Shown: positions 1,418-55,339 of the stretch, in pieces
Numbering within the stretch: the first letter of the stretch is position 1
Layout of the letters: each line of letters starts with the position of its first letter
Source of the DNA: Brachycybe producta
Taxonomy: Eukaryota > Arthropoda > Diplopoda > Playtdesmida > Andrognathidae
Direction of reading: 5' to 3'
DNA: 64,000 nt
Assembly (NCBI GenBank): GCA_036925085.1
Contig: JAUPFP010000019.1
Location: 254,001 to 318,000 of the forward strand
The notes under the pieces: model-generated
Seen by the model: the letters and a program-made list of their open reading frames with translations, nothing else
Databases searched by the model: none
Told to the model about the DNA's origin: nothing
Position numbers and translations under genes: made by a program

Positions 1418-2399
1418 GCAGAATTCTTTCATGAGTCATCGAGGTATCAATTTGCAAAAAAAATACAAACGCAGAATTGAAACAAGAGAAATGTTTTTAT
1501 TAAACAAAAAGTTTACAAAGCCGACCCACAAAGCAATAAAAACAACAATGTATACAGAAGTTATACACGACGAGGCTAGAGGTCAAGCAGACTCTGATTC
1601 CCAAGAAAGAGTAGCCATCACAACTTGTAGCGAAGGCAGAAAAAAGCCCCAAGAAAGGACGGGCAGGAGAATCAGAAATCAATTGACACCTTCTGACAAT
1701 AGGAACCAAGATTTAGGACGAAGTTCCATTAGAAAGGTCGGAGTTCAGATGACTGCCACCTTAGTAAAGATGGAGGAAAAACAATCCTTCGTCTCTGTTA
1801 AAATAAACAAACAGAAAAATGAAAACAAGACCCCCGAAAATGGTCATCTGACCACGACAGGGAGAGAGACGCATTTTTCCAATGAGTGGAGAAATTCAAT
1901 AAATATCGTCACCTTGGTTCTTATTCTTTTAATCGTACTTACCATTATCGGAGTAAAAGTCATGAAAGAATTAAGTCGACTTGTCAAAGGCGGTTTAACC
2001 AGCCTCGCGAAGAACATAACCGAGAAGAGTGGTAGTCCATCGGTCCATAGACTACCACCCGAAGAGCAAGCGATGGAACGAAAGGCCGTTCCATCCAAGA
2101 AAGAGCCTTCTTGTCCACCAGGAACTAGAGAAAGAGGACAAGAAGGGCAGGAGGGATGTGCCGCCGCCAGTGAACACACCCCTAGGGCTACTGAGGAAGA
2201 GGAGGAAGGAGGACAAAGAACAATGTTGGTGTCCTTGGCCAAGGAGCAGCAACCACAAGAGGGGGTAGACACCATCCAAGTGACCCCGAATCCTGGCCAC
2301 ACCTCCTTATCCCCGAACGAGCTGCCCCGAACAACCGCCAGTCCTGGCCAACCGGAGCAGGACATCGGAGAGGGCTACCATCATCGTCCCCAACATTAG
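1386..2399 (+). CDS. E1 accessory ORF with one predicted membrane segment, 337 aa
   Basis: An open frame of 337 codons between the gag remnant and ORF3. The N-terminal half is strongly basic (many K/R, Q and T). A hydrophobic stretch at about residues 171-190 (VTLVLILLIVLTIIGVKVM) is long enough to cross a membrane. The C-terminal half is rich in E, P, Q and G and looks disordered. There is no N-terminal signal peptide and no cysteine pattern, so it does not look like a typical envelope glycoprotein. It may be the N-terminal portion of the ORF3 protein separated from the conserved domain (2555-3304) by frame changes, because E2 and E3 also have long low-complexity regions before their ORF3 domain. 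No function is assigned. It overlaps the previous ORF by 32 bases in another frame. Confidence 0.5.
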   Translation: MRNLSNPLIYKQNSFMSHRGINLQKKYKRRIETREMFLLNKKFTKPTHKAIKTTMYTEVIHDEARGQADSDSQERVAITTCSEGRKKPQERTGRRIRNQLTPSDNRNQDLGRSSIRKVGVQMTATLVKMEEKQSFVSVKINKQKNENKTPENGHLTTTGRETHFSNEWRNSINIVTLVLILLIVLTIIGVKVMKELSRLVKGGLTSLAKNITEKSGSPSVHRLPPEEQAMERKAVPSKKEPSCPPGTRERGQEGQEGCAAASEHTPRATEEEEEGGQRTMLVSLAKEQQPQEGVDTIQVTPNPGHTSLSPNELPRTTASPGQPEQDIGEGYHHRPQH

Positions 2400-2554: not shown

Positions 2555-3304
2555 TTGGAGCTCGTTCAAGAAAGAGAAGTAGCGAGCGGTTGGGAAGCGC
2601 AACCCATGCCATGCAGTGGGGAGCGGAGGAACCAGTGGTTGCAAGTAGCGACCACCGAGAAAGAGCGAGAGAGATTCGTCCGCCAGTTCCTCCAAGGCCG
2701 GCAGAAGTCCCGGACTACTGAGTCCGCCCCGCTGGAAGAGACGCAGAGGAGAGTAGACGGAGAAGTGCGAGATGACCCAGGAATCGAGATGGGTCCAGTC
2801 CTCCTGAACAACCTTATTGTGCGTTGGTACCGACACCAGGCACCCAGGTCAGTCCAGTACCTGGGGTGCTTCACACCACGCCTAGGGATGCTGCAAGTCG
2901 CCTTATCGACCACGTGCCGCCATTACCTCACAGTAAAGGCAAGAGGGGACATCGCCCTCGTCCTAATCAAGAGAACGACGCTAGAATGTCGAATCTACTA
3001 CTACAGGGGAGGGTGGAACGTGCCAAGAGAGAGAGGGAACGTGAGGTGCTTCCTGCATCAACTGCTACAGCCTGGACCGACCCACGAGATAGACATTAGC
3101 TACGGCGAGTTTCGGTTCACAGGTGGACGCACCGAAAAAGTGGTGCTACTGTATGATGCAGTGGTCCATGCGATTATGGGAGATATGCCCCAACAAGAGG
3201 TCGTCGGGAGGAACTGTCTAATTAAGACGATGCTCCGTATGATCACTCGGGCAGCAGAGGCGCCCCACCGTGGATGGGCCGACGTGCGCGATCCCTACCC
3301 ATAG
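2555..3304 (+). CDS. E1 ORF3: conserved retroelement accessory protein, 249 aa, intact
   Basis: The best preserved copy of an accessory gene shared by four elements here. Residues 1-75 are charged. The conserved domain starts at about residue 83 with VLLNNLIVRW, then VQYLGCF, a beta-strand-like block (RHYLTV, then DIALVLIKRTTLECRIYYY), a helical block (RCFLHQLLQPG), and a closing block (TEKVVLLYDAVVHAIMG to HRGWADV) just before the stop. The same order occurs in E2 (16750-17249), E3 (31990-32510, minus) and E5 (42086-42760, minus). The gene sits upstream of the AT-rich 3' region and LTR, the position env or ORF3 takes in other LTR elements, but it has no signal peptide or membrane anchor. I do not recognise the family. 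A weak resemblance to Ulp1/C48-type folds is discussed under findings. Confidence 0.75.
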   Translation: MELVQEREVASGWEAQPMPCSGERRNQWLQVATTEKERERFVRQFLQGRQKSRTTESAPLEETQRRVDGEVRDDPGIEMGPVLLNNLIVRWYRHQAPRSVQYLGCFTPRLGMLQVALSTTCRHYLTVKARGDIALVLIKRTTLECRIYYYRGGWNVPRERGNVRCFLHQLLQPGPTHEIDISYGEFRFTGGRTEKVVLLYDAVVHAIMGDMPQQEVVGRNCLIKTMLRMITRAAEAPHRGWADVRDPYP

Positions 3305-10860: not shown

Positions 10861-11592
10861 ATGAAGACCTCCAAGATTTACTTCGCTAACGAGATGTTCT
10901 ACGAAAGAACACATGATTTATTGAAGAAAGGAAGTGCTCATAACAGCCTTCCCTGGAATTTCTTCACAGAGATACAGGAGGGAGGAGGTACTCGTAACAG
11001 CTTTCCGGAAAACTCCTATGCCGTCAGAGCCAAAGCGGAGATCTGTGTAAGAGCTCAAGGCAGGATTATGTTAAATCCTGGCCAATCTTTGAACCTCAAG
11101 GTTGCTGCAGAGCGTATCATTGAGGAAAATGAAGTCCTGATGATCGAAACGAATGATAGTCTCTTTAACAGAAAAGGCGTCGTTGTGGCCAGCAGTGTGC
11201 TACAAGGGGATGGAACATCACAACTGGAAGTCCAACTCCTGAATACCACACTGGAGTCTGTGGGAATTGGAGACCACGAGACTATTGGACACTTTGAACT
11301 TCTGGAAGAAACAGAAGAGCATGCCTGCAAAGTCTCTGAGGAGGAAGACTTTAGAGACATTGGAGAAGCGCCCGTTGATTTTGAGAAAGAAATTCAACTT
11401 GGTCCTGAATTAACAGATAATCAAAGAGAAGAGTTGATGACCCTACTGAAGGAATTCGAACCGATCTTCGCCTTTTTATCTGAGGACCTGAGAGCGACAA
11501 ATTTGACTAAACACAAGATCGAAACTGGAGCTAATCTACCTGTTAGAGACATGTTACAAAAATGCGGACCAGGAGAATGCATCGTAAATTGA
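10861..11592 (+). pseudogene. E2 protease C-terminus and pre-RT region
   Basis: The frame starts within the last part of the aspartic protease domain: KIYFANEMFYER corresponds to KVYLEDDLFESAL in E5 and KVYFREDVWTAHPD in E3. The catalytic DTGA segment is absent. The remainder is the linker before RT, including the beta-rich region and the conserved LTKHKIETG stretch (compare LTEHRIDTG in E5). The frame closes at 11592 just before RT resumes in another frame at 11597. It belongs to the pol of a Ty3-like element and cannot supply a working protease. Confidence 0.8.
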
Positions 11593-11596
11593 TGAG

Positions 11597-12844
11597 ATGC
11601 TAGAGGAGATGAAGAAATCTGGGGTTGTATGGCCATTGAAATCACCATACGCATCACCCAGTGTCCTTGTGAAGAAAAAAAATGGATCCTACCGTTTCTG
11701 TGTGGATTATCGAAAGTTGAATGCGATTACGAAGGCAGACACTTATCCATTGCCAAGAATTGTTGACGCATTGGACACCATGAGAGGAGCATGCTACTTC
11801 GCAATGTTGGATATTAAGAGTGGATACTGGCAATTTGAGATGGAAGAAAGCGACATCGAGAAGGCCGCATTTACATCTCATCGAGTATTGTTCGAGTTCG
11901 TAAGAATGCCTTTCAGACTCCGAAACGCTCCTGCCATGATGCAACGTGCATTAGACATCCTACTCGCCGGGCACAAATGGGAAATGTGCCTTGTCTACCT
12001 TGATGACATCGTAGTGTTTGGAGGAACTTTTGAATTTTTTTTGGAAAGATTGAGAACTATCTTGGATCTGCTGAGGACAGCAAACCTAAAGTTGCATCCA
12101 GTAAAATGCTTCTTTGGGTTTCAAGAAGTGAAGTATTTGGGACACATGATTTCGCCTGACGGAATTCGGCTAGATCCAGATAAGGTTGTCGTCATTAAGA
12201 ACTTCCCAGTTCCTGACAACGTAGCCGCAATCTGGAGTTTCTTAGGATTGGCAGGTTATTATCGAAAGCATGCACCTGGAATTGCCAACATAGCGAAGCC
12301 AATGTCAGACCTTACGGGCAAAGATATACTGTTTGAATGGTCAGTGGATTGCAAGAATGCGTTCCGCACATTGAAGAATATGTTGTCAAAAGCTTCATTA
12401 GTTGCCGTATATGATCCCAAGGCTGCAATATTTATGCATACTGATGCCTGTGGATACGGAATTAGAGCCATGCTGTACCAAAAGTCAGAAGACAAACGAA
12501 GAAAGATCATTGGAAGTTTCTCCAGAGTCTTAAGGGATGCTGAAAAGAATTATAGTACGACGGCTAAAGAATGCTTAGCAGTGATCTATGGAGTCACCGA
12601 GTTCCGGCCGTACCTGTTCCAGAAACCCTTTACAATTGTAACTGATCATCATGCATTATGCTACATGAAGACTGCAGCTCGTCTGGAAGAAAGACTTGGA
12701 TGCTGGCAGCTGTTAATGCAAGAGTATGACTACAAAATCATCTACAAAGAGGGGAAACTTCACATCGAAGCTGATTGCCTCTCAAGATATCCACCAGGAG
12801 TGCCTGTCAATTGGAAGGCCATCCCAGAAGCTGAAGCTAGATGA
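11597..12844 (+). pseudogene. E2 reverse transcriptase and RNase H (Ty3-like), 415 codons
   Basis: Open frame with RT motifs in order: SPYASPSVLVKKKNG, RFCVDYRKLN, FAMLDIKSGYWQ (catalytic Asp), MPFRLRNAP and LVYLDDIVVF (YLDD catalytic pair), then the connection domain and RNase H with HTDACGYG, TAKECLAV, TDHHALCY and HIEADCLSR. The usual MPFGLRNAP is MPFRLRNAP, a Gly-to-Arg change at a conserved position. RT and RNase H would copy element RNA into DNA in the cytoplasmic particle. The domain is otherwise complete but is separated from the pre-RT frame by a frame break. Closest relative in the window is E5. Confidence 0.9.
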
Positions 12845-15881: not shown

Positions 15882-17249
15882 GTGGAGGATCCAAAAATGG
15901 GGCCCCTCATCACCATTCAAAGCCAGCAGAGCAACGAGGAGGGCAACGATGTTCTCCTCATCAACACTGATGATGATGAGCTGCCCAGAGCCAAAACTAC
16001 ACAAGCTTCAAAAGAAGCAAGCACCACTGCAACCTCTCCCACCAAACTTTACGTAAAGCTCGCAACTTTGAATCAAAAGGAGACCACAGTACCGGAGGAC
16101 CCAAGAGACGACTACAATGCGCAACTGAGACTACTGGTCGACATCGCCGTCGAGTACCACCTCCGAGGGTTGGCATTGGTGGATCAAGTCTACGAGACCT
16201 TCGATGGAGAGCGTGTCGTGCTATACGACGGTCACATTATGGACTACAAGAGGACTGTCCTTCCGATTGAGATGGGTAACTCGGGCCCCACAGAAAACCT
16301 GTTGGTTCATGGAGTTCGACGCTGGAGGCAGCCAAGGCATCTCGTCGAGCGAAACCGGCACAGCAGGGGCCTGCGAAACCAATTGAGGTCGGAAGTAAAG
16401 AGCTTCTTCCACCATGCGCCGAAGAACACCGTCGTACTGAAGGATGTCCGCCCTCATGAGTCAGGGCTATACCGAGATGACATCACGATGATGGAGCCAA
16501 AAAACTGCCACCAGGAGCGATATGGAAGCTCCTGGGAGTCCTAGGGCTTCCATAACATCTCCTGTAACCATCGAAGCAGGACCGAAAAGTGAAACAAGGG
16601 ATGAACCGAAGGAAGAGACTGGAGCTGTACCGAAACGAAGACCGGTGAAGGGGGTGCTGGGGTGGCCATCGCGGATCCCCACGAAGTCCTTGGAGGTCCC
16701 TGATGGTAAGCCTATCACGAAGCCGCATCGTAGTACCCGAGAAAATGAGACTGTGCTGAACAATTTATTTGTTCAGTGGCAGCGTAAACGAACGCCATGC
16801 CGCCATCTGTATCTGGGGCTCTTCGAGAGCAACGAAACTCCACCGAAGAACTCTCTTCCTGCAGACAGAGGTTTTTATCATCGCTCTCATCGTCCAGGCT
16901 TTATCGCTCATCTTGGTATTCAACAATCGGCTGAACAAGACAACAGAGCATTACTACGACGATGTCTTCCACCTGGAACAAAACCGATGACGAGATTCAC
17001 CGGTGGATGCGACAGTTCTTTCAATGGGACAAAAATCGTCCCATTCGCATCGTCAGGAACCCGATTCGCAGGCCATCTCTCCACAATGACCATCCTTATC
17101 TCATGTTCGATGAGGCCCACAGTCAAGCAGAGGGTCGCCGGAGTCATCGTTACTACAAGGGATCAGCTGGAACTGCCAAGTTCCTCAAAATGGAGCTTCG
17201 TCGAGGACCTGAGAGCCCTGGGATTGGATGGGCCGACCAGACATATTAA
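15882..17249 (+). pseudogene. E2 ORF3, broken into at least three frames
   Basis: The frame 15882-16544 (220 codons) has a charged N-terminus and a block RVVLYDGHIMDYKRTVLPI, resembling GGFLVGDRRYFIGEILTVQ in E3. The conserved domain begins in the 16522-17361 frame with TVLNNLFVQWQRKR and LYLGLF. It continues in the 16769-16990 frame with SLILVFNNRLNKTTEHYYDD, and ends in the 16962-17249 frame with RWMRQFFQW, HPYLMFDEAHS and GIGWADQTY directly before the stop. The order matches E1 ORF3 (VLLNNLIVRW, LGCF, ALVLIKR, TEKVVLLYDAVV, HRGWADV). Function unknown. The copy is not translatable as one protein. Confidence 0.65.
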
Positions 17250-31922: not shown

Positions 31923-33689
31923 TTAGGTACCGAACGGCTTCTCTGGCGGTGTCGTGAAAGTGGAGCCCATCCACTCCGCAGCCCACCGACGTGCCCACCA
32001 CAAGCACATCTGGGTGTTATGCCACCCAAAACCAGTATCGAAGACCGTCCCCCTAAGACGGCTTTCCTCCAGGGCTCGGAATTCCTCGAAAGGAATATCC
32101 TGGAGTTGCGGACGCGTGCGAAGCGTACGACTTATCAGGAGGTCCACCAGGGCAACCGCGGGCTCGGTCTCACACCCTGGTAGAGGCTCAGTTATAAACT
32201 GTCCAGCCATACCTCCTAAGTCGCATCCCAGCAAACGTTGGATGAATGGGGCTGCACGCCGGGCTAGACGAACTATCCCGGCATCTAGCCCCACCACATC
32301 CAGAATTGCAAACGTTTGCTGGACCGGGTTTACGACCATCACAACTGGAAAACCTCCACAACCAAATGCCACCACATGGCGCATGTTGTATGGCGGTAGC
32401 CTTGCTACCCACGGCTCCAGAAGTGGCTCATCCAGACGGTAGTAGCCGTGGTATTATCAACCCTCCATTCCCGGCTGGTCCTGCCAGAGACCAAGCCGGT
32501 TATTCAGATACACCTCTGCATCTGAATACGGGGGCAATGCGCCAATACGCCGTCTCTCGGCCTCAGGCCTAGGGGAGGTTGATGTTTCTGGTCCTAGGGT
32601 ATCAAATACCTCGCCGCCATGGACCGGAGAAAAGGGTGTACCCCCACTGGGGGTGACTCCTGCAACCGAGGTTCCTTCGCCCTTAGGTGAGGGCAAAGTC
32701 ACACGGTGCAGGGTTCCCACTGCTCGAACCCGCAGGCTCGAGACCGCATCCACCTTAGAGGAGGATGGAGGCGTGCCGACCAAAACGTCGCGCATCGACC
32801 TACCATCCATCCGCGCCGCCTCAACGGGACGGGTATGGACCGGCTGACTCCCGGCCGGCGTGCTAACCTGAGCACGCCGGGACTCCTCCTTTTCCGCCAC
32901 GACGCCTCCAGTTTCGGCTCCCTGGCGCCTACTACTGGAGGGTGTCGGACTCCCCTTCCTCTCACGCTTGGACTTTTTACGGTCCTTTTTCTTTTTCTTT
33001 TTCTTCCCGTGAGAGGAAGGTTGACCATGCGTCGTGTCAGACTTAACTGACCCCGACGACTTACTGGGCCGATCAGGCTTAGGCGGGTGGTTAGCCCCCT
33101 TCGCCTTCTCGGGCTCCTTCGAATGTTTTCCGGCCGGAGCCGTACTCTTCTTCGCAGAAGTGCCCTTAGCCGAGGTGACAGCCGAGGATGACTGTCCGGA
33201 GACAAATCTTCCTCGACCATCCCGAAGGAGAGGCTTCTCCTTCGGTGCAAGAGTCGGCTGACTCTTGCCACCAGTAGCTTTGGCTTCCGCACCATGGGCT
33301 GGTACACTGGAAGATTGCATCGCCTTCCTCTCGGCGATTCGCTTCTGGCCAGCGATGGTCGTGGCACTCGCAATAGGCGGGACACCACGACCGACAGGAG
33401 GTTCCCCTGTTTTGAGCGGGCTCCGGGCGGGCATTCCCTGCAGGAGGGAATTCCGCAGCCTGGCGCTCAAACTCCTGCCGCTCTCCTGCACCGACCGCAC
33501 GAGCGATCTGTCAGTGCAGGCTCGCTGCTTGAGCCTGAAGCCGTTTGAGCTTGTCCTCCAAGCTCTCGGGCTTCCGAGGTTCGAAGGCCTTTCCTCGACC
33601 GGAGGACCTGGCCTTCTTGCCCCGTGAGCTTTTAGCCACTGGTGGGGTGCGAGGGCGGGACCTTTTTTGTCCCTTGCTACCACCACCAC
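31923..33689 (-). pseudogene. E3 ORF3: Lys/Ser-rich N-terminus plus conserved domain, two in-frame stops
   Basis: The upstream frame (33689-32457) encodes about 400 residues rich in K, S, P and R, with a lysine run (KKKKKKKDRKKSKRERK) suggesting RNA/DNA binding or nuclear targeting, then LPPYSDAEVYLNNRLGLWQD. Two adjacent stop codons interrupt the frame at about 32455-32460. The same frame then continues with YHGYYRLDEP, RHVVAFGCGGFPVVMVVN, TFAILDVVG, PFIQRLLG, TEPAVALVDLLISRTL and a final FGW. Order and spacing parallel ORF3 of E1, E2 and E5. Because both sides stay in one frame, the stops look like point changes, though a readthrough design cannot be excluded. Function unknown. Confidence 0.65.
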
Positions 33690-34400: not shown

Positions 34401-35416
34401 TCAATCTAGGAGGTCTCGAACAGACGGAAACCCGGGTTCCGGGGTACTAGCGGTTACCACACCGGTAGCCGCTTTCCCACCATCAACACCCGCTTCTGCA
34501 GGCTCTCCGACCGGAGAAACTACCGCCGCCACCGACTGAACGGTGGTAGCAGCCGTATCCCTGGAGGGAGACTGCAGGTATCTGCCCCAGAAAGCTCCGA
34601 CACCGGTCGGAGTCGACGGGGCAGACCCCAGACCTTCCACGGCTTCTGCCGCCGGGGAATCAACAGATTCCACGGTGGCGTCAGCCGTTTCCGGTCCGCC
34701 AGATGATGGGGAGCCCTCCGATCCCGTCTCCAACAGCCTTGCATCCCCCGGATGCAGCGGGCTGAGGGAGGGGGACCGTCGGCCACTCCCGTCACCTTCC
34801 TCCTTCTTCTCTGTGGTGAGCCTGTGAAAAAAGGAAGAAACCGTCAAAAACAAGTTTTTACCGTGGAAAAGTGAATTCCACGGGCTTTCACCGTGAGAAT
34901 TCCCGTTTTCACCGTCCAAAGTCGGTAAACCACGGTAAAAACCATGGATAACCACCTTCGGACGGTGAAAACACCCTTTCACCGAGTTCTGACGGTTGGA
35001 AAGGGCATTGCACGGACTTCTAAAGTGCAAAATGCCGTTATCACCGTCCAAAGTCGGCAATTCACGGTCGAAACCGTGTTTTACCGCCTTCGATCGGTGA
35101 AAACCACTCCCTGGCGGGCTTCTACCATCCAAACACCGTCGAACTTGGGCCTTCCCAAGCGAAACGGCGCTCGGACGGGCTGAACCCGCCGGAAAAGTGC
35201 TTTTCATAGTGGCTTGGCCACCATGACAACAGTCATGGCGGCGAAACCACTCCCACCACGTGTGTATACGGTCATTGACCGTAAAACACACCGTTAACAA
35301 ATAAAAGAGAACTGCCAACAGGCAGGAGAAGGAAATTCCCTTAGAGGGACTTACTTTTTCAATGTTGCCCTCTTTTCCAGTTCTTGGTGGCCTCTTTGGC
35401 GGTGAATTTTGGTTTT
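34401..35416 (-). other. E3 pol-ORF3 interval with ACCGT/ACGGT cluster and tandem repeats
   Basis: The open frame 35318-34401 (305 codons) contains repeated blocks (VKHGFDRELPTLDGDNG and VIHGFYRGLPTLDGENG) that reflect about 120-bp DNA repeats, and an acidic Ser/Pro/Ala-rich end. The DNA from 34840 to 35310 is crowded with ACCGT/ACGGT motifs (about 14 by eye). I think the DNA repeats, rather than a protein, may be the conserved feature, but the frame is open and could be expressed. Confidence 0.45.
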
Positions 35417-38400
35417 TTAACCCACGTGTGGCCGGCGTTTTTTGTTGTTAAATTTGCAAACAATATGGCACCTAGCCGCCAAATTCACCGTCTTAGCGGC
35501 TAATGGCCGTGCAGTAGCGGCTAAAACACGATCAGCCGCCTCATGCATGGTCACCATAGAGATTTCACCGTCGTCTGCCTTTTTAGGGGCAGACACACGG
35601 TGAATTCTCCTACACCAAGACTGGAACTGGTGGGTAGAGACATTTACCGTCAATTCTCTTATATTGATGGTAACTGGAGATTTCATGGAGGTTTTTACGG
35701 ACGGATTTCTCCGTCCACGGACCGATTTTGTCGGACCTTTGGCTGGACACCTGGTGATGGGCCGCCCTTGGTATCCACCGAAACCGTGGTGGGCCCCAAA
35801 CACCGCAATGTCCGGCCGCCTCCTCTCCCAGCCGTCCGCCCACAGTAGCGGACTGCCAGATCTCTCCCACCACGGTAGGGATACCCAAAGAGTACCCCAT
35901 ACCGTCCAACTTCCTATTCGAGGCTCGAACAAACTCACCTCGAACACCCTCGGTCTCCGCGGACGGAGATGATACCGAGAAGGAGGGGGGGGGTCGTCTG
36001 CCTCGGAGTCGGTAGACTCCTGCGAAGAAACAGACGGTGGCTTTAGCGCCGGAGTCATTCCACTCCGTGCCGAAGCCTCCGTGGCATCGCTGTCTGCACC
36101 GGAGGAGGTGTCAGAGACACCAAGTCCATCTTCCTCTCTCACAGTGCAGGTGGGTACATACGGCTTCAGGTTATCTACGTGAAACCGGTCGCGCACCTTC
36201 CGACCATAACCGTCAACAAATTCTATCTCGTAGACTAGGTCAGAATACCGTGCGACCACCGTACCCCTCTCAGCTTTATACGCCAAGTTCCATTTCTTCG
36301 CCTGACCGAGCTTCCCAGCCTGATCTCTTATCCACACCTGATCTCCAGGCTGATAAAGAGGAGGCTCCACACGGCCAGCGTCATACCGCTCTTTTTGCCT
36401 TCTTTGAGCAGCCGTCAAACGTTGACGAGCCTGCTCCTCCACGGCTTGCTGGTCAGGCAAGTCGCGGACTGGACCGTTCGGAAGGAGGTTATCAATCTCC
36501 AACCGAGGCTCACGGCCAAACAACAACTGATATGGAGAGACCTGTGTACTCTCCTGGACAGCTGTGTTATAAGCCCACACGGCGGGCCGTAATTTATCCC
36601 ACCAGTCACGCTGTTCCTTGAGGGGATCAAGGTACCGCTTGATGGTTTCCATTACGGTTTTATTCGTACGCTCCGTAAGCCCATTAGCTTGTGGATGGTA
36701 TGCCGTAGTGAAGTAATGCGCTATGCTATAGCGCTCCCAGAACTTCAGCAGGACTTTGCTGGAGAACTGGGACCCACGATCTGAGACAAGAGCTTTCGGT
36801 GTACCATACACCGAAAGGATCTCGTCCTTCAGAAATTTCACAACACAGGCGGCCGTGGCCCTTCGTACCTCCCTTGCCACACTGTAACGGGTGAAATAGT
36901 CAACCATGATTAGTACATAGGTGACTCCACCCACGGAGGCAGGAAACGGTCCAACGAAGTCCATTTCCCAGGTATCAACTGGGTACTCCGGCACAATCGG
37001 TTGGAGAAATCCCTGACGTCGAGCGAACTGTCGCGCTCTCTGACACACCAAACATGACTTAACATATTCGGCAGTGTCCCGCTTCATACCGATCCAGTAG
37101 AAGCGTGAGCGCAGTCTTTGGTAGGTCTTAAACATCCTGAAGTGACTAGCTTTGGGAACGTCATGTAGCTTCCTTAGACAGAAAGCCCTGCATGACTTCG
37201 GCACTACCAGAACAGTTCTCAACTGATCCTGGATGGACCTGATGGCAAGCAACAAGTCATCTGCCACCACGAACTTGAACCGGAGGTTCGAGTTGGGGTC
37301 ACGGAAGATTTCACTCTTCACTCTGGAGCACCAGCCATCGGCCTCTTGCTCCTTGACCCAATCCACCTCGGAACGGATGTGGTAAATAACCTCACCTACG
37401 TCGGCTTCGATGTATTCAGGTAAGGAAAGGTCCGCCACATCACGAACAGGATACCGACTCAAAGCGTCGGCATCCACGTGCAGTGTCCCCTTCCTATACT
37501 GAACCTTAAACCGGTACTCTTGAAGCTGCATCTGCCAACACCCCAACCTGCCTTGCAGGTTTTTGGCTGTCTGCAGATAGCAAAGAGCATGGTGATCAGT
37601 TACGATCACGAACTCCCGGTTAAAGAGGTAAGGACGGAATTTACCCACGGCAAACATGACCGCCAAGCACTCCTGCTCGGTGACCAAATACCGTGTTTCC
37701 GCTCCTTTCATGAGCCGGCTTGCGTAGGCCAGAACACGGGGGACACTGTCCTCCGGTAACTTCTGGTAAACTACGACTCCCAAGCCGTACCCACTAGCGT
37801 CGGTATGTATTATTATTTCACCACGAGAATTGTACATGGTGAGCACCGGCGCTACGGTTAAAAACGCCTTTAACCGAGCAAATGCTACTTTGCACTGATC
37901 CGACCACTCGAAGGACGCATCCTTCTTCGTCAGATCATGCAAAGGCCTTGCCACTTTGGCGAAGTCCTTGATGAACCTTCGATAGTAACCGGCAAGTCCG
38001 AGAAAACTACGGATGCCTGTCACCGTCGTCGGGACATCAAACTCCTGGACTGCTCTTACGAGATCCGGGTCCGGAGCAACTCCCTTGGCACTTACTACGT
38101 GACCGAGATAACGCACTTTGTTAAAGCCAAAGAAACACTTCTTCGGCTGGAGTTTTAGCTCTGCCCCTCGTAACAGTCCAAGGACAGTGGAGAGTCTCTC
38201 GAGAAACTGCTCGAAAGTGTTCCCAAAGACGATAATATCGTCCAGGTACACCAGACAAGTCTCCCACTTATGTCCTGCCAATAAGAGGTCTAGCGCTCTG
38301 TGCATGGTGGCTGGAGCATTATAGAGTCCGAAAGGCATTTTCCGGAACTCAAACAGACCTTGAGAGCAAATAAATGCCGTTTTCTCAACATCTGGCTCAG

Positions 38401-38917
38401 CCATCTGAACCTGCCAGTAACCACTAGCCAGGTCCAAGGTAGCGAAGAACTTCGCACCGGCCAACGAGTCGAGCGCATTATTGATGTGAGGCAACGGATA
38501 CTGATCCAGCTTTGTCTGGGCATTCAATTTCCGGTAGTCCACGCAAAAACGAAAGCCACCATCCTTCTTGCGAAGCAAGATAGGGCTCGCATAGGGACTA
38601 CGTGAAGGTTGGATAACCCCTGCATCCAACATCTTCACCACCTCTTCTTTCTCAACTGCCCTGGCCGCTGGAGCGGTTCGACGCAATCCTTCTCGCACTG
38701 GAGGTTGCCCATCGGTGTCAATCGTACGTTCGACCAGAGAGGTTTCACCCAACTCTGTAAAGTCGAACGCGAAATGATCCCGGGGTGACAGCAGGAACTC
38801 CCGAAGCTGTCTCGCCTCTTCAGGCTTCAGATTGGGACCAATCTTAAGACACTCTTCAAGAGTAGGAGCCATCACCACATTGAGCACGTGGCGTCCGTTT
38901 CTGGACGCTCCTCTCAA
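35417..38917 (-). CDS. pol: E3 pol polyprotein: reverse transcriptase, RNase H, integrase (Ty3-like), 1166 aa, intact
   Basis: A single open frame with every expected catalytic residue. RT: RFCVDYRKLN (about 124-132), FFATLDLASGYWQ (D162), MPFGLYNAP, LVYLDDIIVF (YLDD 224-227). RNase H: HTDASGYG (D373), TEQECLAV (E416), TDHHALCY (D441), HVDADALSR (D484). Integrase: zinc finger H585, H592, C622, C625; core WEMDFVGPF (D653), LVSDRGSQF (D713), GLTERTNKT (E749); C-terminal domain with YQPGDQVWIRDQ and RFHVDNLKPY. It would copy the element RNA to DNA and insert it into the genome. The last 200 residues are low-complexity and may not be functional. Start: ORF from 38917; protease is encoded just upstream in a separate frame (38970-40301). 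The best preserved pol in the window; GC content is clearly higher than the flanks. Confidence 0.93.
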   Translation of the reverse strand: MRGASRNGRHVLNVVMAPTLEECLKIGPNLKPEEARQLREFLLSPRDHFAFDFTELGETSLVERTIDTDGQPPVREGLRRTAPAARAVEKEEVVKMLDAGVIQPSRSPYASPILLRKKDGGFRFCVDYRKLNAQTKLDQYPLPHINNALDSLAGAKFFATLDLASGYWQVQMAEPDVEKTAFICSQGLFEFRKMPFGLYNAPATMHRALDLLLAGHKWETCLVYLDDIIVFGNTFEQFLERLSTVLGLLRGAELKLQPKKCFFGFNKVRYLGHVVSAKGVAPDPDLVRAVQEFDVPTTVTGIRSFLGLAGYYRRFIKDFAKVARPLHDLTKKDASFEWSDQCKVAFARLKAFLTVAPVLTMYNSRGEIIIHTDASGYGLGVVVYQKLPEDSVPRVLAYASRLMKGAETRYLVTEQECLAVMFAVGKFRPYLFNREFVIVTDHHALCYLQTAKNLQGRLGCWQMQLQEYRFKVQYRKGTLHVDADALSRYPVRDVADLSLPEYIEADVGEVIYHIRSEVDWVKEQEADGWCSRVKSEIFRDPNSNLRFKFVVADDLLLAIRSIQDQLRTVLVVPKSCRAFCLRKLHDVPKASHFRMFKTYQRLRSRFYWIGMKRDTAEYVKSCLVCQRARQFARRQGFLQPIVPEYPVDTWEMDFVGPFPASVGGVTYVLIMVDYFTRYSVAREVRRATAACVVKFLKDEILSVYGTPKALVSDRGSQFSSKVLLKFWERYSIAHYFTTAYHPQANGLTERTNKTVMETIKRYLDPLKEQRDWWDKLRPAVWAYNTAVQESTQVSPYQLLFGREPRLEIDNLLPNGPVRDLPDQQAVEEQARQRLTAAQRRQKERYDAGRVEPPLYQPGDQVWIRDQAGKLGQAKKWNLAYKAERGTVVARYSDLVYEIEFVDGYGRKVRDRFHVDNLKPYVPTCTVREEDGLGVSDTSSGADSDATEASARSGMTPALKPPSVSSQESTDSEADDPPPPSRYHLRPRRPRVFEVSLFEPRIGSWTVWGTLWVSLPWWERSGSPLLWADGWERRRPDIAVFGAHHGFGGYQGRPITRCPAKGPTKSVRGRRNPSVKTSMKSPVTINIRELTVNVSTHQFQSWCRRIHRVSAPKKADDGEISMVTMHEAADRVLAATARPLAAKTVNLAARCHIVCKFNNKKRRPHVG

Positions 38918-38969
38918 CTTAGACGAGGCCCCCCTGGTCGAACCGTCCTCTGAGTGGGGTCTCCCCCTC

Positions 38970-40301
38970 TCAACTCAAACGGCTCGGCTCTTCCAGTCCC
39001 ACCACAATGGCAGCCTCCACAGCTTGAGCCGTGGCTACATCCTCTCCTGTTTCCAGGGCAACAGGTGCATTACCCACGTTCTCAAGCCAGATATCGTACG
39101 TGCCAAGCCGGTTAGCTGCAGCGATACCTGCTACTGCGAACACACCACGTCCACCTAAGGCTTTCCGGTGCGGCTCCACGAGAAGCAGCTGGCCAGGGCC
39201 GGCATGCTCTACCAACGTAACCGATACGACACGTCGTACGTGGGCTGGCAGCCAGACATTCTCCCTCAGTCGCAGAGAACAAACTTCTTCGCGCCCGATA
39301 GAGGTTCTGGTCTCGGGCAGCTCTGGTGAAACAATGTTCACCCACCCGTCAACCTTCTCGAGTGCAGGTGGATCCACTGGGAGTTGCCGTCCCGGAGGCA
39401 AAGCCCCTGGTATCGGCGATGGAATTGCTTCCACCTCCCTAGGTTCTGCAAGCGCTCGATCGGTGAATTCAGCTTGGAGGGCGTCTGGATGTGCAGTCCA
39501 GACATCCTCCCGGAAGTAGACCTTCCGGTGCACGATATCTACCATCAAGCCGAAGCATGAGGCATGATCAACGCCCAACAACGCTTCACCCTCTCCTTTC
39601 ACCAGAAAGAGAGGCACCTTGATGGTTTTCTTGTGGATGGTCAATTCCACATTTGTGACCCCTACCACCTCGATGGAGTGCCCACCCATTCCAAGAAGGA
39701 ATGAAGGAACCGCCAGTTCCTCTATAAGCAACTCAATCACTCGTGCCACCGTTATGCTTAGGACCGACACGTCGGCCCCGGTGTCTACGATCATCTCCAA
39801 GAGACGATCGCCTATCGACACCCACACCCTTGGTGAACCTACGTCGTAGGCCCGGCTCTGAAGCTCAGGAATGGGAACCCGCGGGTTCCCACCATCGACC
39901 TTCTGCCTCCCGTCCACCTTACCGTCCACACCGGACGGTAATTCCAGACGTGCAGAAGACTGGGGCACAGTCTCAGAAACCAGAGACTCCCCAGGCACAA
40001 CAGGAGGTATGGGCGCACCAACTCCTCCCACCTGCTCGATGAGCGCACGATCCAGCACCTCACCACTAGGCATGTAGGGTGAGGGGGCAAACCAGCGATC
40101 CAGCTGGCTGCACGCGGCCTCTAATGTGGAGCATAGCGATGGAAATACCCACTGGGTAATTTCTGGGTCTGCAGACCTCGCCAGAGGCACCCCTGCCTTA
40201 CGCAGGACATCCACATACTTGGAGACCGCCCGGAGGTACGTCCCTCGCTCAGAACCCAGGCCCTGACAGGCACCTGAGTTTTGAAGCTTTACCGGTCGCA
40301 C
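38970..40301 (-). CDS. pro: E3 retroviral-type aspartic protease ORF, about 443 aa
   Basis: The protease core has MIVDTGADVSVLS with DTGAD at about residues 173-177, a flap-like GMGGHSIEVVG, and ALLGVDHASCFGLMVDI, the conserved hydrophobic-Gly segment near the domain end, followed by KVYFREDVW. N-terminal to it is a gag-tail-like region. C-terminal is a pre-RT region with a beta-rich repeat-like segment (VTLVEHAGPGQLLLVEP) also seen in E2 and E5. The first codon here is GTG and the frame is open further upstream. It lies in the -1 frame relative to the zinc-knuckle frame (40594-40307), so it is probably reached by -1 frameshifting rather than independent initiation. It would cleave gag and pol in the particle. 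Confidence 0.85.
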   Translation of the reverse strand: MRPVKLQNSGACQGLGSERGTYLRAVSKYVDVLRKAGVPLARSADPEITQWVFPSLCSTLEAACSQLDRWFAPSPYMPSGEVLDRALIEQVGGVGAPIPPVVPGESLVSETVPQSSARLELPSGVDGKVDGRQKVDGGNPRVPIPELQSRAYDVGSPRVWVSIGDRLLEMIVDTGADVSVLSITVARVIELLIEELAVPSFLLGMGGHSIEVVGVTNVELTIHKKTIKVPLFLVKGEGEALLGVDHASCFGLMVDIVHRKVYFREDVWTAHPDALQAEFTDRALAEPREVEAIPSPIPGALPPGRQLPVDPPALEKVDGWVNIVSPELPETRTSIGREEVCSLRLRENVWLPAHVRRVVSVTLVEHAGPGQLLLVEPHRKALGGRGVFAVAGIAAANRLGTYDIWLENVGNAPVALETGEDVATAQAVEAAIVVGLEEPSRLS

Positions 40302-40306
40302 ACCAC

Positions 40307-40594
40307 TCAGTTCGGTGGCGACCGGCGGCGGTTTAACGAAGATTTCTCCTCGTCCTCCATGAGTCGATAGTAGAACTGGCCATCATGAACGGTGGCCAGG
40401 TACTTACGACCCTCCAGCCAAACTGGCGCAACGCCGGCGGTTGGCTGGAGGTTCTGACTCTCGTCAGGCACCACTCTGGCAACCAGCCCTTTGGCCGCAG
40501 CCTTCGGACAATCCTTCCTCAGGTGACCCATCTTGGGATGTGTCGGCTCCAGGAGCCACCCATGACGGACACGAAGAAAACCACGCCGCCACAC
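40307..40594 (-). pseudogene. E3 gag C-terminus with partial zinc knuckle
   Basis: The frame contains MGHLRKDCPK, the last part of a CCHC knuckle; the leading CxxC half is replaced by sequence continuing from the LTR remnant. Capsid sequence is entirely missing. A basic tail (SLNRRRSPP) precedes the stop, where the protease frame overlaps. A deletion joined the 5' LTR remnant directly to this point, so E3 cannot make its own particle protein. Confidence 0.65.
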
Positions 40595-40821
40595 CGAGAA
40601 TATCGCGGTAGAACAATGGTTCTACCACGAGCCGACACAAGTACCGGCCGAAAAAGGACGGTAGCAGGACGATGGAGATCCCCAAGCAGAAATCCCACCC
40701 CCCTCGCGGTACTCCCCAAATAAAGAGACACGACACACAAAGTAAGATGATAAAAGTGTATTTAATTGACACTTATGATGTATGATGCTAAAAATGATGA
40801 AGGCAGTGATATTTACACAAC
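40583..40821 (-). mobile_element. E3 5' LTR remnant
   Basis: It matches 31250-31440 of the 3' LTR (GAGAATATCGCGGTA, GAGCCGACAC, CACAAAGTAAGATGA). Its outer half, including the TATA region, is missing and is replaced at about 40822 by the TA-rich microsatellite. Confidence 0.65.
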
Positions 40822-41077: not shown

Positions 41078-41750
41078 TGTGAGCTTTTGACATCAACCAA
41101 TATTTTATTACCAACCTTTAGATGACATCTTCTACTTTTCGTTTCTTCTCTGAGCAGTATGACACCTGCACAGAGAAGATCCGAGCTGTAGAGAGAGCTG
41201 GATGGAGATAGATTGTAGTCACTCTTCTGCATGGGGGTGAAATCGATGCAGGAGAGTGGCGGCCATCTCTCTCTCTTCCGGTTGATGCTGATATACATCT
41301 TCTCCATCGGTATCCCGACCAGAGAAGATGTTGTAGCTGCTGAGAATCGTATAGCTCCTGCCCTATGAAACCTCCGGCCTCTGAAGAGAAGTTATTTACA
41401 TAGACATAAAGACAACGCTACTTCTTGTTACAACACTTTTATTCATTCCTTGTAAGAAGTACAGATACAAGGGTGAATAGTAAAATACTAACTGTGAATC
41501 CTCAGGCCCATGATTTGGAATGTATCTCAAAAACAGGCAAAGGAAAGAACTTAGGAACAAAGAGGAACACGGTCCTTTTATACCTTGGACCTGTGTACAC
41601 CTGCGAGGTGTAACCAGGTCCAAGTGACCATGGTCCTTTATGTATCAATCCGCCGCTTGGGCATGAGTCAGAGAGGAGGGAGGGACGGTTGAGAGTTGTT
41701 TACCCCCCAGGCTATGGTTTTGGCGGGATCACGATTTACAGGGTGTTACA
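41078..41750 (-). mobile_element. E5 3' LTR, 673 bp
   Basis: On the minus strand TGTAACACCCTGTAAATCG to AAAGCTCACA. It contains the promoter inverted repeat, TATAAAAGG and GAATGAATAAAAG. By eye it is identical to the 5' LTR (50431-51116) except for 13 bp missing at about 41670, between two GAGTCAGA repeats. The purine-rich GTTGGAGGGTA precedes it. The outer flank is ATAT, as at the other end. Confidence 0.93.
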
Positions 41751-42085: not shown

Positions 42086-43106
42086 CTATACCCACGTCGG
42101 TTGATTGCATGCACATGTACATGCAGAGACATATCCGTGAAGTGCTTGTAGGGGGTCTGACGGTGAGTGGAGGAGGTGGCTCCGCAGCCAGGGATGATAG
42201 GATTCCCAGGCGGCGACGATCCATCCGTTGTCGAAGCCCCGGAGAATCTCCATGTAACTTCGGTGGACGGTGGCGTCGGCGGCGATCAGTCGGGCCGGTG
42301 GTTGCCCGGTGAGGACACCGTAAACGGCGTCCCACAGGATGGCGGCCTGGTAAGTGGCGCGGGTCCTCCAAACGATCATTCGGGCAATGCTGTATGCTCC
42401 GTTAAGTGGGACTCCCAGGAGACTTAAAGAAAGCCTGCTGAAGGGCGCCCAATGCTGGAGTGATGGGCTGCTCGGCAAACTGGTATATTTCGATGTACCG
42501 GGTGGACGGAGTTAAGACGGCCATAGAGAGTTGCAGGTAGTATGACATTCCTACAACGTAGCGCCCTTCCTCCGGTATGTAGAGGCGCGGAAATCCCTCC
42601 ATCAGGTCATAGTGACCGATGTAATAGGTGTTCGCGGGCCGCACCTGTCGTTGCCAGAGTGCCCAGCAATTATTTAGCAGTCTTTCACATCGTGCTTCCT
42701 GACGAAGCGGTCGATATACCGGTAGTCTCCTGGTAGTGACTGTTGGTATGCGAAAAGGTTGTGTCACTTGCGGCAAAGTTAGTACGGGGGTTGCTGAGGC
42801 TGCGGCGATATGGCGAGACGAGGCAGTTGACGTCGTTAGGTCGACGGCGCGCGCAGTGTCGTCCCCGACTTCCTCGATGCCGAGTTGCTGCGTTGTCGTG
42901 TCATCCGAGTCCATCCTAGTAGATGGGTCAGGGATGGCATCGTCCTGGCTTCCCGTTGTTTCGTTGCACTGTGACATCCTTGTTCTTCCAGAATTGTTTC
43001 CGAAGTGCTGGTGACCAGCCTGGCGTTGGCTATATACTTGTGTGTTTCCCGACTTCCCCATCGAGGTGTGAAATTCCAGGGTCCCATGGAAATCGTATAA
43101 TTCCAC
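42086..43106 (-). pseudogene. E5 ORF3, one frameshift in the conserved domain
   Basis: The frame 43106-42402 encodes a low-complexity N-terminal half (D, T, Q, S rich), then the conserved domain: RLLNNCWALWQRQV, YYIGHYDLMEG, RYVVGMSYYLQLSMAVL, RYIEIYQF and LGALQQAFFKSPG. A frame change near 42405, in a GGG run, ends this frame; the domain continues in the 42478-42086 frame with AAILWDAVYGVLTG and FDNGW. The order is the same as in E1-E3. It lies about 330 bp downstream of the pol tail on the same strand. No signal peptide or membrane anchor is evident, so it is not a conventional env. Function unknown. Confidence 0.7.
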
Positions 43107-43431: not shown

Positions 43432-43735
43432 TTATTGTGGTGAGGAGGTAGGTTCCTCTTGTTGTGGGGAGCTGGATTTGTCTTCCCCCTCCAACCCTTG
43501 AACAACTGTCCTCAGTTGTTTTGGCTTGATATGTACAATGTTCACCGTGTCTCGAATCAATCTTCCAAACGTATCTTCGTGCTCCAGCTCGAGCACCGTG
43601 TCGCTGATGATTTTGGTTACCGTGTAACCATCCCTGTACGAGTAACGTAGTTTCTTGGTCTCATCAGGCACGATGCGTTGATCTCGAACGAGTACTGGGT
43701 CTCCGATTTTATACGTGTGGAGTTTTTCGTCTTGC
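43432..43735 (-). pseudogene. E5 integrase C-terminal domain and pol tail, displaced frame
   Basis: The frame 43896-43432 becomes pol-like after about 43735: YKIGDPVLVRDQRI, TVTKIISDTVLELEHE, GRLIRDTVNIVHIKP, ending in an acidic/Ser tail. It corresponds to IGQKVLVRDMRI and NVVNMRPL in E2. The main pol frame stops at 43709 (RRKTPHV), so an indel near an A run at 43720-43735 separates the two. Confidence 0.8.
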
Positions 43736-45940
43736 GTCATAGTACTTCTTCTGTCGCAAATGGGCCTTGTGCAGGTTGGCCCTTGCGATTTCGACCTCTT
43801 CCGTGGCAACCACAGAAGGTGCTGCAGGGTTTGAATCCATAACCTTCGGTAGGAGAGGTGCCCGATTGTCGATTCGTAGTCGGGCCTCTCTTCCAAACAT
43901 TAAGCGGTATGGCGAGAACTTCGTCGACGTGTGGGTCGCAGTGTTGTACGCGAAGGTGGCGGCTTGGAGATGGAAATACCAATCCCGCTGTCCTTTTTCA
44001 GGTGTCAGGAGTCTCTTGACGGTCATCATTATAGTTTTGTTGGTCCTTTCCGCAAGACCGTCTCCTTGCGGAAAGTATGCTGTCGTGGTGGCGTGCTTTA
44101 TTCCCAGCTCGTCACACAGCGCCTGTGTGTCTTTAGCTGTAAAAGGTGTCCCCCGGTCGGTGATTATCCTCCTGGGCATCCCGATAAGATACACGATCGT
44201 ATCTTGGAGGAAATTCTTAGTTGTTTTGGCCGACTGGCTGTGCACAGCTCGTGTGAAACAGAATCTGGTGGCGTAATCCACTGCCAGGATGATGTGCTTG
44301 ACACCACCCAGTGATTTTGGCAGGGGACCGATGTAATCGATCCCCCAGCATTCACCTGGGTCTCCAACTTCCATTTCATGGAGGAACCCGGGCAGCTTGG
44401 ACTGTGGTGTCTTGCACTTTTGGCATATCTCGCACGTGCGCACATATTCGATGGTATCCTGCTTCCAGGTTGGCCAAAAGAACCGTTGGCACACCTTTTC
44501 CAATGTCTTATCCTGGCCGAAATGTCCGGCTTCAGGACTATCGTGTAAAAGTCTCAGAACTTCGGGTACCAGATGTTTGGGTACCACCGTCACGAGCTTG
44601 GGTGTTATGCTGCCCTGGTAGACAAGGGCACACAAAACCTCGTCTATGATGACATAGGTATGGTGAAGCTCGGTACTTGGATTGTTGCGAAGTTCGGTCT
44701 TAATCTGTGTCACGTTCGGGTCTCTTGTTTGTTCAACCGACCAATCCCAACGCAAAGTGACTGCGTAAACCACGCTGTCGTCGAGGTCATCTGGGGTAGC
44801 CTGCAGCTTCCAGTCCTCAGGAACGTCCACCGGACTCCGTGAAATGCAATCTGCATCCACGTGAGTGATGCCGGCTTTGTAGACTACGGTGTAGTCGTAT
44901 TCCTGGAGCAGCAGCTGCCAGCGGCCCAGGCGTCCTTGGAGTCGCTGTGCGGTTTTTAAGTAGCACAGTGCATGATGGTCGGTGACGATGACAAAGGCTT
45001 TGTTAAAGAGATAAGGTCTAAACTTGACGATGCCATACACCACTGCGAGGCACTCTTTATCTGTTGTTGAATAGTTTAATTCGGCGTCTCGGAGCACTCG
45101 AGAGACACCACCCAGGATCTGCAGTTCCTTAGATGGTGATTGTTGGTAGAGGATAGCTCCGATGCCGTAAGCAGAGGCGTCGGTGTGCATTTTGATTTCG
45201 GCATCTGGGTCGTAAATGGCCAATATTGGCGCGGTGACAAGTTTAGTCTTTAACAGAGTAAATGCTGCCTCTCTGTCGATCGTCCATAAAAAGGGCAGCC
45301 CCTTTTTGGTCATATCCGTGAGTGGTTTAGCGATGTGGGCAAAGTTAACAATAAATCGCCGGTAGAAACCGGCCATGCCCAGAAATCGCTTCACCTCCTT
45401 GACATTAGTAGGCGCCGCTAAGTCGGAGATGGCAACCACTTTCCTCGGGTCTGGACGCACTCCTTCTTTGGAGATGATGTGTCCCAGGTAGAGGACTTCG
45501 TCGTAGCCGAAGAAGCTCTTTTCGGGGTGAAGCTTCAACCCCGCCTCTCTTAGGAGTCCTAGGACGCAGTCCAACCTTTCCATAAACTGTTCAAAAGTCG
45601 CGCCGAATACGATGATGTCGTCTAGGTAGACTAGACAAGTCTCCCATTTGTGGCCAGCCAAAAGGATATCCAGGGCACGCTGCATAGTAGCAGGAGCGTT
45701 ACGCAGACCAAAGGGCATCCGATTGAATTCGAACAGCCCACCGGGTGTGATGAACGCGGTCTTCTCCCTATCCTCTTTGGCGACCTCAAATTGCCAATAG
45801 CCGGAGATCATGTCGAGGGTCGCGAAGATTCTCGACCCACGAAGCGAGTCTAAAGCATCATCGATTCGGGGTAGTGGGAAATTGTCTGGTTTGGTGATAT
45901 CGTTCAGGCGTCTAGTCAACGCAGAAACGCCATTGTCCAT
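43709..45940 (-). pseudogene. E5 reverse transcriptase, RNase H and integrase core, 743 codons
   Basis: A long open frame holding most of pol: FATLDMISGYWQ, MPFGLRNAP, LVYLDDIIVF; RNase H with HTDASAYG, TDKECLAV, TDHHALCY, HVDADCISR; integrase zinc finger HDSPEAGHFG with CEICQKCK; core WGIDYIGPL, IITDRGTPF, GLAERTNKT, so D, D and E are all present. The frame begins just after the RFCVD motif of RT: the preceding frame ends there because two bases are missing between VD and the expected YR. Apart from that break and the displaced C-terminus, the catalytic regions look intact. The role is reverse transcription and insertion of the element. Confidence 0.88.
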
Positions 45941-46691
45941 CCTTCTTCTTCACCAGGACTACTGCTGAAGCATAAGGAGACTTGGATTCGCTGGCTACTC
46001 CGGATTTGAGCATTTCCTCAACTGTCTTCCAGATGATCTCCCGCTGCTCGGGGCCACTCCTTCGGAGGGGTTCCCGCACGGGTGCATGATCGCCAGTATC
46101 GATTCGATGTTCCGTGAGGTTGGTACATCCAAGTTCCGACGTTTCTAGCGCGAAGACATCTCGATAGGATCTCAAAAGATCCATTAGAATGCGCCTCTGG
46201 CCATTACGTAATCGAGGCCCGAGTTGCATTGCTTCATCGAATTTAGCGCCTGACTCTTTTGTCATGATCGGGTCAGCGTTTGAAGTGGTCTTTACTTCAA
46301 CCGTTTCGAAGCAGTAGTCTTTTTGTACATGGGCTATCACTTCGCCGGAGGCCAGGGTCAATGGCCCCATAGTGGTGTTCAGGACCTTGACTAGGAAGCT
46401 GTTGCTGTTACAGCCTCGCATAATGCCGGGGGCCACCCAGACCCCCCTCGAGGCGCGTAGCTTCTCGTCAGGAGAGACCACGAAAAGATCCTGATCTGTG
46501 AGGATCCCAGAGGCCTCTACCTCCACTAGTGTTGTCCCATGGCCAGTGAGCTGCGTTAGCCCTTTGACTACTAGGTATTCGTCCGGTTGCTGCATAAGCT
46601 TGACTTCAATGGGAGCGGTGTCCGACTCCCCAAGAGTGGCTGGCGTGATTTCTTCCAGAGCACTCTTGACGTACGCCTGAATACTCTGCCT
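45912..46691 (-). pseudogene. E5 pre-RT region and first RT motifs
   Basis: The frame runs from the stop of the protease ORF (46694-46692) without further interruption to RFCVD at 45914. It includes LVVKGLTQLTGHGTTLVEVEASG, LTEHRIDTG and SPYASAVVLVKKKDG. It is in the same frame as the gag-protease ORF upstream, from which one TGA codon separates it. The first ATG (46595) may not be used; the region is normally part of one polyprotein, as in E2 and E3 where no stop occurs at this place. Confidence 0.8.
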
Positions 46692-50430: not shown

Positions 50431-51116
50431 TGTGAGCTTTTGACATCAACCAATATTTTATTACCAACCTTTAGATGACATCTTCTACTTTTCGTTTCTT
50501 CTCTGAGCAGTATGACACCTGCACAGAGAAGATCCGAGCTGTAGAGAGAGCTGGATGGAGATAGATTGTAGTCACTCTTCTGCATGGGGGTGAAATCGAT
50601 GCAGGAGAGTGGCGGCCATCTCTCTCTCTTCCGGTTGATGCTGATATACATCTTCTCCATCGGTATCCCGACCAGAGAAGATGTTGTAGCTGCTGAGAAT
50701 CGTATAGCTCCTGCCCTATGAAACCTCCGGCCTCTGAAGAGAAGTTATTTACATAGACATAAAGACAACGCTACTTCTTGTTACAACACTTTTATTCATT
50801 CCTTGTAAGAAGTACAGATACAAGGGTGAATAGTAAAATACTAACTGTGAATCCTCAGGCCCATGATTTGGAATGTATCTCAAAAACAGGCAAAGGAAAG
50901 AACTTAGGAACAAAGAGGAACACGGTCCTTTTATACCTTGGACCTGTGTACACCTGCGAGGTGTAACCAGGTCCAAGTGACCATGGTCCTTTATGTATCA
51001 ATCCGCCGCTTGGGCATGAGTCAGAAAGGTGAGTCAGAGAGGAGGGAGGGACGGTTGAGAGTTGTTTACCCCCCAGGCTATGGTTTTGGCGGGATCACGA
51101 TTTACAGGGTGTTACA
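50431..51116 (-). mobile_element. E5 5' LTR, 686 bp
   Basis: TG...CA ends on the minus strand; promoter inverted repeat, TATA box and poly(A) signal as in the 3' LTR. The outer flank is ATAT (51117-51120), matching ATAT at 41074-41077, consistent with a 4-bp target duplication although the target is itself a TA repeat. Confidence 0.93.
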
Positions 51117-51196
51117 ATATATATATATACATATACACATATATATATACATATACACATATATATATATACATATACATGTATACATATATATAT
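51117..51196. repeat. TA/TACA microsatellite, middle part
   Basis: Simple sequence between the two LTR insertions, continuous in type with 40822-41077 and 51883-52057. Confidence 0.9.
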
Positions 51197-53130: not shown

Positions 53131-53137
53131 TTATATA

Positions 53138-54742: not shown

Positions 54743-54751
54743 TACATTAAG

Positions 54752-55322: not shown

Positions 55323-55339
55323 TATTAAATATTAAATTA

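Follow-up and report, generated by a model that had tools for sequence, protein, structure and literature searches.

What is encoded by ORF3, the open reading frame (ORF) that follows pol in several Ty3/Gypsy long terminal repeat (LTR) retrotransposons of Brachycybe producta (Diplopoda), and what might it do there? The question was raised by a 64,000-nucleotide stretch of contig JAUPFP010000019.1 (assembly GCA_036925085.1, forward-strand positions 254,001 to 318,000), referred to here as the window, in which a preliminary description had claimed one conserved, unrecognised domain common to four elements, E1, E2, E3 and E5. ORF3 is probably a domain with the fold of the CE clan (Ulp1/SENP/adenain) and without conserved catalytic residues, kept under selection in several Ty3/Gypsy families, where it would serve as a non-catalytic binding module.

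Domain copies and their homology

The ordered sequence blocks described earlier for the four elements were found again at their positions, and the domain occupies the following places in the window:

2768..3301, plus strand: E1 domain, CE-clan-like by its AlphaFold2 model (putative pseudoprotease), an open reading frame here
16750..17249, plus strand: E2 domain, the same domain as in E1, with at least two frameshifts
31990..32510, minus strand: E3 domain, the same domain, interrupted by two stops
42086..42760, minus strand: E5 domain, the same domain, with one frameshift

In E1, LLNN..W (2801-2827) and the closing HRGW (3266-3277) lie in one frame, and the ORF has 273 amino acids (aa), compared with 797-823 aa in the longest open genomic copies. 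The domain is disrupted in the other three of the four copies. In E2, LNN..W (16756-16779) is read in a first frame, ALSLILVF (16898) in a second, and WMRQFFQW and PYLMFDEA (within 17004-17117) and GWADQTY (17226-17246) in a third; in E3, LNN..W (32484-32510) and GFGW (32022-32033) are found on the minus strand with the two stops inside the domain; and in E5, LLNN..W (42654-42680) and NGW (42221-42229) are present, the domain being broken by the frameshift. The readings across these breaks are backed by intact reading frames in genomic copies of E2, E3 and E5 type. Many open E2-type copies have long ORFs (mostly about 2,560-2,580 aa) with the domain at the ORF end, the domain-bearing ORF of open E3 copies reaches 2,921 aa, and in open E5 copies the domain mostly has a separate ORF, 365-416 aa long. 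One E5-type copy (G000:C47:355041-355589) has the domain inside a 2,113-aa open frame, unlike most E5 copies.

The genome assembly (295 Mb, 442 contigs) was searched for further carriers, as had been proposed; at most about 150 candidates were scored per search, so match counts are lower bounds. At least 150 matches were obtained with the E1 domain (best 150 of 269 candidates), at least 150 with E3 (best 150 of 1,348) and at least 148 with residues 1-259 of the E5 ORF (147 scored of 1,642). The E1 query reached lineages outside the window, namely L079 (1.4e-20), L080 (6e-20), L095/L096 (about 1e-15) and L081 (4e-12), as well as E2-type loci (E 5.9e-8 down to about 1e-3). The L079 domain, which sits in a 2,709-aa ORF, matched E1 (1.4e-19), the L099 lineage (1.0e-6), E5 (4.2e-6) and E2 (1.7e-5) when used as the query, and in the L099 lineage, with 45-48% identity to most listed E5-type copies, the domain is in a 2,089-aa ORF. 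The same domain is thus present in additional elements (L079, L080, L081, L095, L096 and L099). It ends a long polyprotein in the E2, E3, L079 and L099 lineages, and in E1 and E5 it has its own ORF further downstream.

Profile-profile scores between families were judged against the best of 30 shuffles, and the comparison of all non-E3 families pooled with E3 against the best of 100. Scores above chance were obtained for E1-E2 (100.6; best shuffle 18.7), E2-E5 (48.1; 20.9), E5-E3 (41.5, E 8.6e-6; 19.8), E1-E5 (32.9; 22.2, with a probability of only 44%) and the pooled families with E3 (39.0; 22.4), but E1-E3 stayed within the shuffle range, and L079-E3 and L081-E3 also scored no higher than shuffles. 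Weak links were found for E2-E3 (23.8 vs 17.5) and L081-E5 (22.6 vs 18.7), and in single-sequence searches with E3 its own family alone was among the matches listed. Chance resemblance of the copies is ruled out by the shuffle comparison. Homology of E1, E2, E5 and the further families is shown; E3 is taken to belong to the family, with less certainty than the others, because of its link to E5, the pooled profile and the structure model. The claim of one domain common to the four elements therefore stands, with this reservation on E3.

E3 had also been called distant in its pol. This is borne out in the integrase part (E3-E2 37% identity, E5-E2 48%) but not in the reverse transcriptase (RT)-RNase H part, where E3 shares 57-58% with E2 and E5, and E2-E5 share 62%; over a longer part of pol, E3-E5 identity is 49%. 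Domain identity is 16-22% among E2, E3 and E5, 13-29% between the main lineages, and 46-51% for L099-E5 and among E2 subfamilies. With 13-29% for the domain vs 57-62% for RT-RNase H, the domain diverges faster than RT.

Predicted fold, catalytic residues and selection

The domain of the four elements has no Pfam match, and neither the E5 ORF nor the domain alignment matched anything in protein databases at E up to 1 (candidates limited by length). Sequence searches of the PDB gave a single match (E 1.2) in one case and none in the other, and viral contigs scanned with two single proteins yielded no relative. Among the best 120 of 4,920 relatives of E5 pol (38-51% identity; the named ones mostly arachnids, with one apple record), the A4 profile found nothing credible (best E 0.37); the relatives searched were of up to about 1,300 aa, and longer polyproteins or separate ORFs would escape. 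PF02902 was located at 23 genomic places, none of which, compared by eye, overlaps an ORF3 place among the matches listed.

Structure prediction, which had likewise been proposed, gave a different picture. The predicted models of E1 and E3 show a near full-length CE-clan alpha/beta fold in structure matches, with 4-14% identity to the Ulp1/SENP/NEDP1 relatives; the PDB matches listed are, judging by their titles, CE-clan proteins. With high confidence, as far as models allow, the domain is predicted to have the CE-clan cysteine-protease fold without the conserved catalytic residues. The earlier statement that it matches no recognised family is thus upheld for Pfam and not for known folds, and an ORF3 without any Pfam match could be identified through its fold. 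The LNN block was considered as the LND motif of Ulp1 and rejected: it lies within model helix 8-23, and the structural match starts at residue 7.

In an alignment of 16 members, only W20, Y31, D130 and G169 are invariant, and there is no conserved Cys or His (in any column at most 6/16 Cys and 4/16 His). Residues vary between families where the third strand begins (His expected), where the fourth strand ends (Asp expected) and where the helix begins on which Ulp1 bears its Cys; an Asp near the second catalytic place is kept in E3 and some E2-type members. The catalytic His-Asp-(Gln)-Cys of family C48 was not found in the 16 members at the positions inferred for it. By comparison, L100 from the same genome has a C48 domain in a 1,049-aa ORF and retains HW, DS, QQ and DCG. 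The L100 frame was found at two places with equal score (G000:C12:3728210-3728509 and G000:C27:1094205-1094504) and is perhaps a mobile element.

The domain is very likely catalytically dead. A cysteine protease that is still active through an unusual catalytic site would agree with the near full-length CE-clan fold of the models, but Cys and His are not conserved in the 16 members, for which reason an active cysteine protease was rejected, and E3 and E5 already encode an aspartic protease recognised by Pfam, so that the domain is not needed as a polyprotein protease; this alternative is highly improbable.

Selection within families was examined by the ratio of nonsynonymous to synonymous differences (pN/pS) in open copies. 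At synonymous divergence (dS) of 0.02-0.3, pooled pN/pS was 0.14-0.21 in E1, 0.20-0.24 in E2, 0.20-0.30 in E5 and 0.09-0.10 in E3, with 0.12 for a single L081-type pair; at dS >0.3 it was 0.27-0.49, with saturation. In addition, the domain was lower than the linker of the same ORFs in E3 (0.09 vs 0.32, 17 copies) and in the first (0.19 vs 0.60, 13 copies) and second (0.09 vs 0.60, 10 copies) E1 subfamilies. The E1 pooled sample (n=28) comprised 25 of the 30 best matches, L093, L094 and the window copy (locus L049), leaving out L067 (truncated) and L065, L066 and L078 (stops), and 23 of those 25 entered the linker test, L054 and L061 being dropped for short linkers. The E3 sample was 18 (pooled test) and 17 (linker test) of the 20 best by domain similarity, the window copy and L021 being excluded from both tests and L011 (short linker) from the linker test; E2 was represented by 10 hand-picked open copies and E5 by 8. 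Because all samples were chosen for open frames and the E3 copies by domain score, pN is biased downwards. With pN/pS <1 in most comparisons, it is very likely that the domain is under selection, as the preliminary description had suggested.

Several points weigh against the reading of ORF3 as a selected CE-clan domain. PF02902 matched in 0/16 members (matches considered to E 10, with a filter against weak ones), and the domain profile scored 11.8 against L100 (shuffles up to 17.4); since the profile misses this canonical C48 protein by sequence, kinship with C48 rests on the fold. For the E1 model, E was ≤0.001 in just 2/924 PDB and 1/676 viral matches, TM-scores of the SENP/Ulp1 rows were about 0.3-0.5 with Foldseek root-mean-square deviations mostly of 4-6 Å, and the mean pLDDT (the model's own confidence) of E3 was 54-56 in 3/5 models. 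The E1 and E3 models are not independent, because they were built from largely the same sequences, and LNN, inside the first helix, may not correspond to LND. The catalytic places were set by the order of secondary structure, because residue-by-residue correspondences are not part of the output of the structure tools. At dS <0.02, pN/pS was 0.47, 1.80, 0.37 and 0.42 in E1, E2, E5 and E3 (2, 2, 5 and 4 pairs, respectively).

Carrier elements and other features of the window

The other features of the carrier elements are as follows:

1899..1955, plus strand: E1 segment, strongly hydrophobic and transmembrane-like (mean hydropathy over 19 residues 3.03); the broken window copy has it on a separate ORF
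11588..12844, plus strand: E2 RT and RNase H (Pfam)
32955..33005, minus strand: E3 Lys/Arg-rich stretch within the low-complexity linker that precedes the domain, resembling a nuclear localization signal by eye
35277..35330, minus strand: E3 hydrophobic segment, directly downstream of pol and in the frame of the domain
35417..38974, minus strand: E3 ORF with RT, RNase H and integrase (Pfam)
38970..40382, minus strand: E3 ORF with retroviral-type aspartic protease (Pfam PF13650)
41078..41750, minus strand: E5 LTR, 98% identical to 50431-51116
43709..45949, minus strand: E5 ORF with RT, RNase H and integrase (Pfam)
46692..48218, minus strand: E5 ORF with retroviral-type aspartic protease (Pfam PF13650/PF00077)
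50431..51116, minus strand: other E5 LTR (repeat comparison, 686 columns, 98% identity)

The Ty3-type order of protease, RT, RNase H and integrase is present in E3 and E5 by Pfam. In E2, RT, RNase H and integrase are present, with no protease match among the ORFs given, and the ORFs given for E1 contain no pol match, its pol being perhaps located beyond the window. E3 has a candidate LTR pair (31195-31445 and 40532-40785, 72% identity).

The hydrophobic segments bear on the alternative that the domain is what remains of an envelope or membrane protein, or has a new, unrelated fold. In 4/4 open E1-type copies looked at, the E1 segment precedes LNN by about 286 residues and belongs to the ORF of the domain. 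In the E3 window copy, pol is in a different frame from the hydrophobic segment and the domain; judging from the lengths, the segment would be part of the 2,901-aa ORF of open copies. A hydrophobic stretch within the domain also passes the hydropathy threshold in 2/3 E2-type copies. These segments speak for this alternative, but the alpha/beta model and the titles of the listed PDB matches point to the CE clan, no envelope-family match was given by Pfam in the window ORFs given or the 16 members, and no above-threshold segment lies upstream of the domain in E2 (where the window copy is broken) or in the E5 ORF3. Chromodomains likewise had no Pfam match in the 16 members, and neither envelope nor chromodomain families are among the structural matches listed, which does not exclude either. 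A remnant or a new fold appears improbable.

Further observations were made in the window. Upstream of ORF3 in E1 (962-1417) there is a weak UCH_1 (ubiquitin hydrolase) Pfam match (E 0.0063, 16.6 bits, below the cut-off of 22.2), likely due to chance and of note beside a domain of predicted Ulp1 fold. An LTR-like copy in inverted orientation (51159-51882; 724 nt, 97%) is found 4 nt past the E5 LTR at 50431-51154, and between the E5 LTR and the protease ORF (49962-50317) a unit of about 60 bp is present as six tandem repeats. At 52608-57346, a stretch of about 0.5 kb is present in three copies (85-88% identity, spacing about 2.0-2.2 kb), and a 192-aa open frame at 63380-63958 resembles, by eye, a non-LTR retrotransposon reverse transcriptase.

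Possible role and comparison with known systems

As the residues for cutting are absent from a fold like that of SUMO proteases, the domain is probably a repurposed binding module, which would have descended from an active Ulp1-type protease. It may bind proteins rather than cut them, and the likeliest ligand would be a modifier of the ubiquitin-like kind (SUMO, NEDD8 or ubiquitin), free or attached to another protein. CE-clan enzymes have ubiquitin-like proteins as their targets. Yeast Ulp1, located at nuclear pores, is reported to limit the transcription of Ty1 (PMC8585004), and for these two reasons a SUMO-type ligand is the first guess. This ligand is nevertheless doubtful and its binding putative, a further point to be counted with those above.

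A CE-clan-fold pseudoenzyme with a structural or scaffolding role only (polyprotein folding, or a partner of capsid or integrase) and no ubiquitin-like ligand is a serious possibility, if short of probable. The invariant W20, Y31, D130 and G169 look like core positions, and the low identity of the domain beside that of RT-RNase H is what a scaffold, or a domain adapting to host partners, would be expected to show; the strong purifying selection within families, however, fits scaffold and binder alike. The odds of a purely structural role are similar to those of a SUMO-type ligand.

If the domain is a binding module for modified proteins, it might guide the element complex to modified chromatin or nuclear-pore proteins in the manner of a chromodomain, or it might shield modified host proteins from SUMO-dependent silencing. 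A speculative and rather unlikely history is that a protease of the deSUMOylase type was acquired by a Ty3/Gypsy radiation, became inactive through loss of the active site and was retained to read SUMO or another ubiquitin-like modifier without catalysis. At the end of Gag-Pol it would then be a targeting module like a chromodomain, or a decoy against SUMO-dependent silencing; were it true, the transmembrane-like segment of E1 would put the domain at a membrane, e.g., the nuclear envelope. Extra conserved domains in LTR retrotransposons are clues to the host pathways with which the element has to cope, and a degenerate deSUMOylase-fold domain under selection across families would tie the success of LTR retrotransposons to ubiquitin-like signalling in this genome.

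The chromodomain is an extra C-terminal module of chromoviral Ty3/Gypsy integrases, with a fold unlike that of the CE clan; the likeness to ORF3 is the position as a C-terminal module after integrase, and a targeting role would be analogous. Extra conserved protein domains fixed in LTR retrotransposons are considered rare (PMC9289625). From the Ulp1/SENP/NEDP1 deSUMOylases (clan CE, family C48, PF02902), the ORF3 domain differs in having neither a Pfam C48 match nor conserved catalytic His/Cys. No report of an Ulp1-type domain in Ty3/Gypsy LTR elements was found among the open-licence papers listed, mainly in titles and the starts of abstracts, Repbase lying outside this coverage. Ulp1 domains are published for Ginger1 and Mutator DNA transposons, recognised as pfam02902, and in Ginger1 the domain is C-terminal to a Gypsy-like integrase, as in the elements here (PMC2836005); those are, however, DNA transposons with a recognised domain, whereas the present carriers are LTR retrotransposons with a degenerate, unrecognised one. 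NeSL and Utopia are retroelements bearing an Ulp1-like cysteine protease (PMC4640811), but they are non-LTR elements, and their domain is N-terminal and a recognised protease. Ulp1-type domains are thus known from DNA transposons and non-LTR elements, and what would be new here, if the predicted fold is right, is a degenerate form in Ty3/Gypsy LTR elements.
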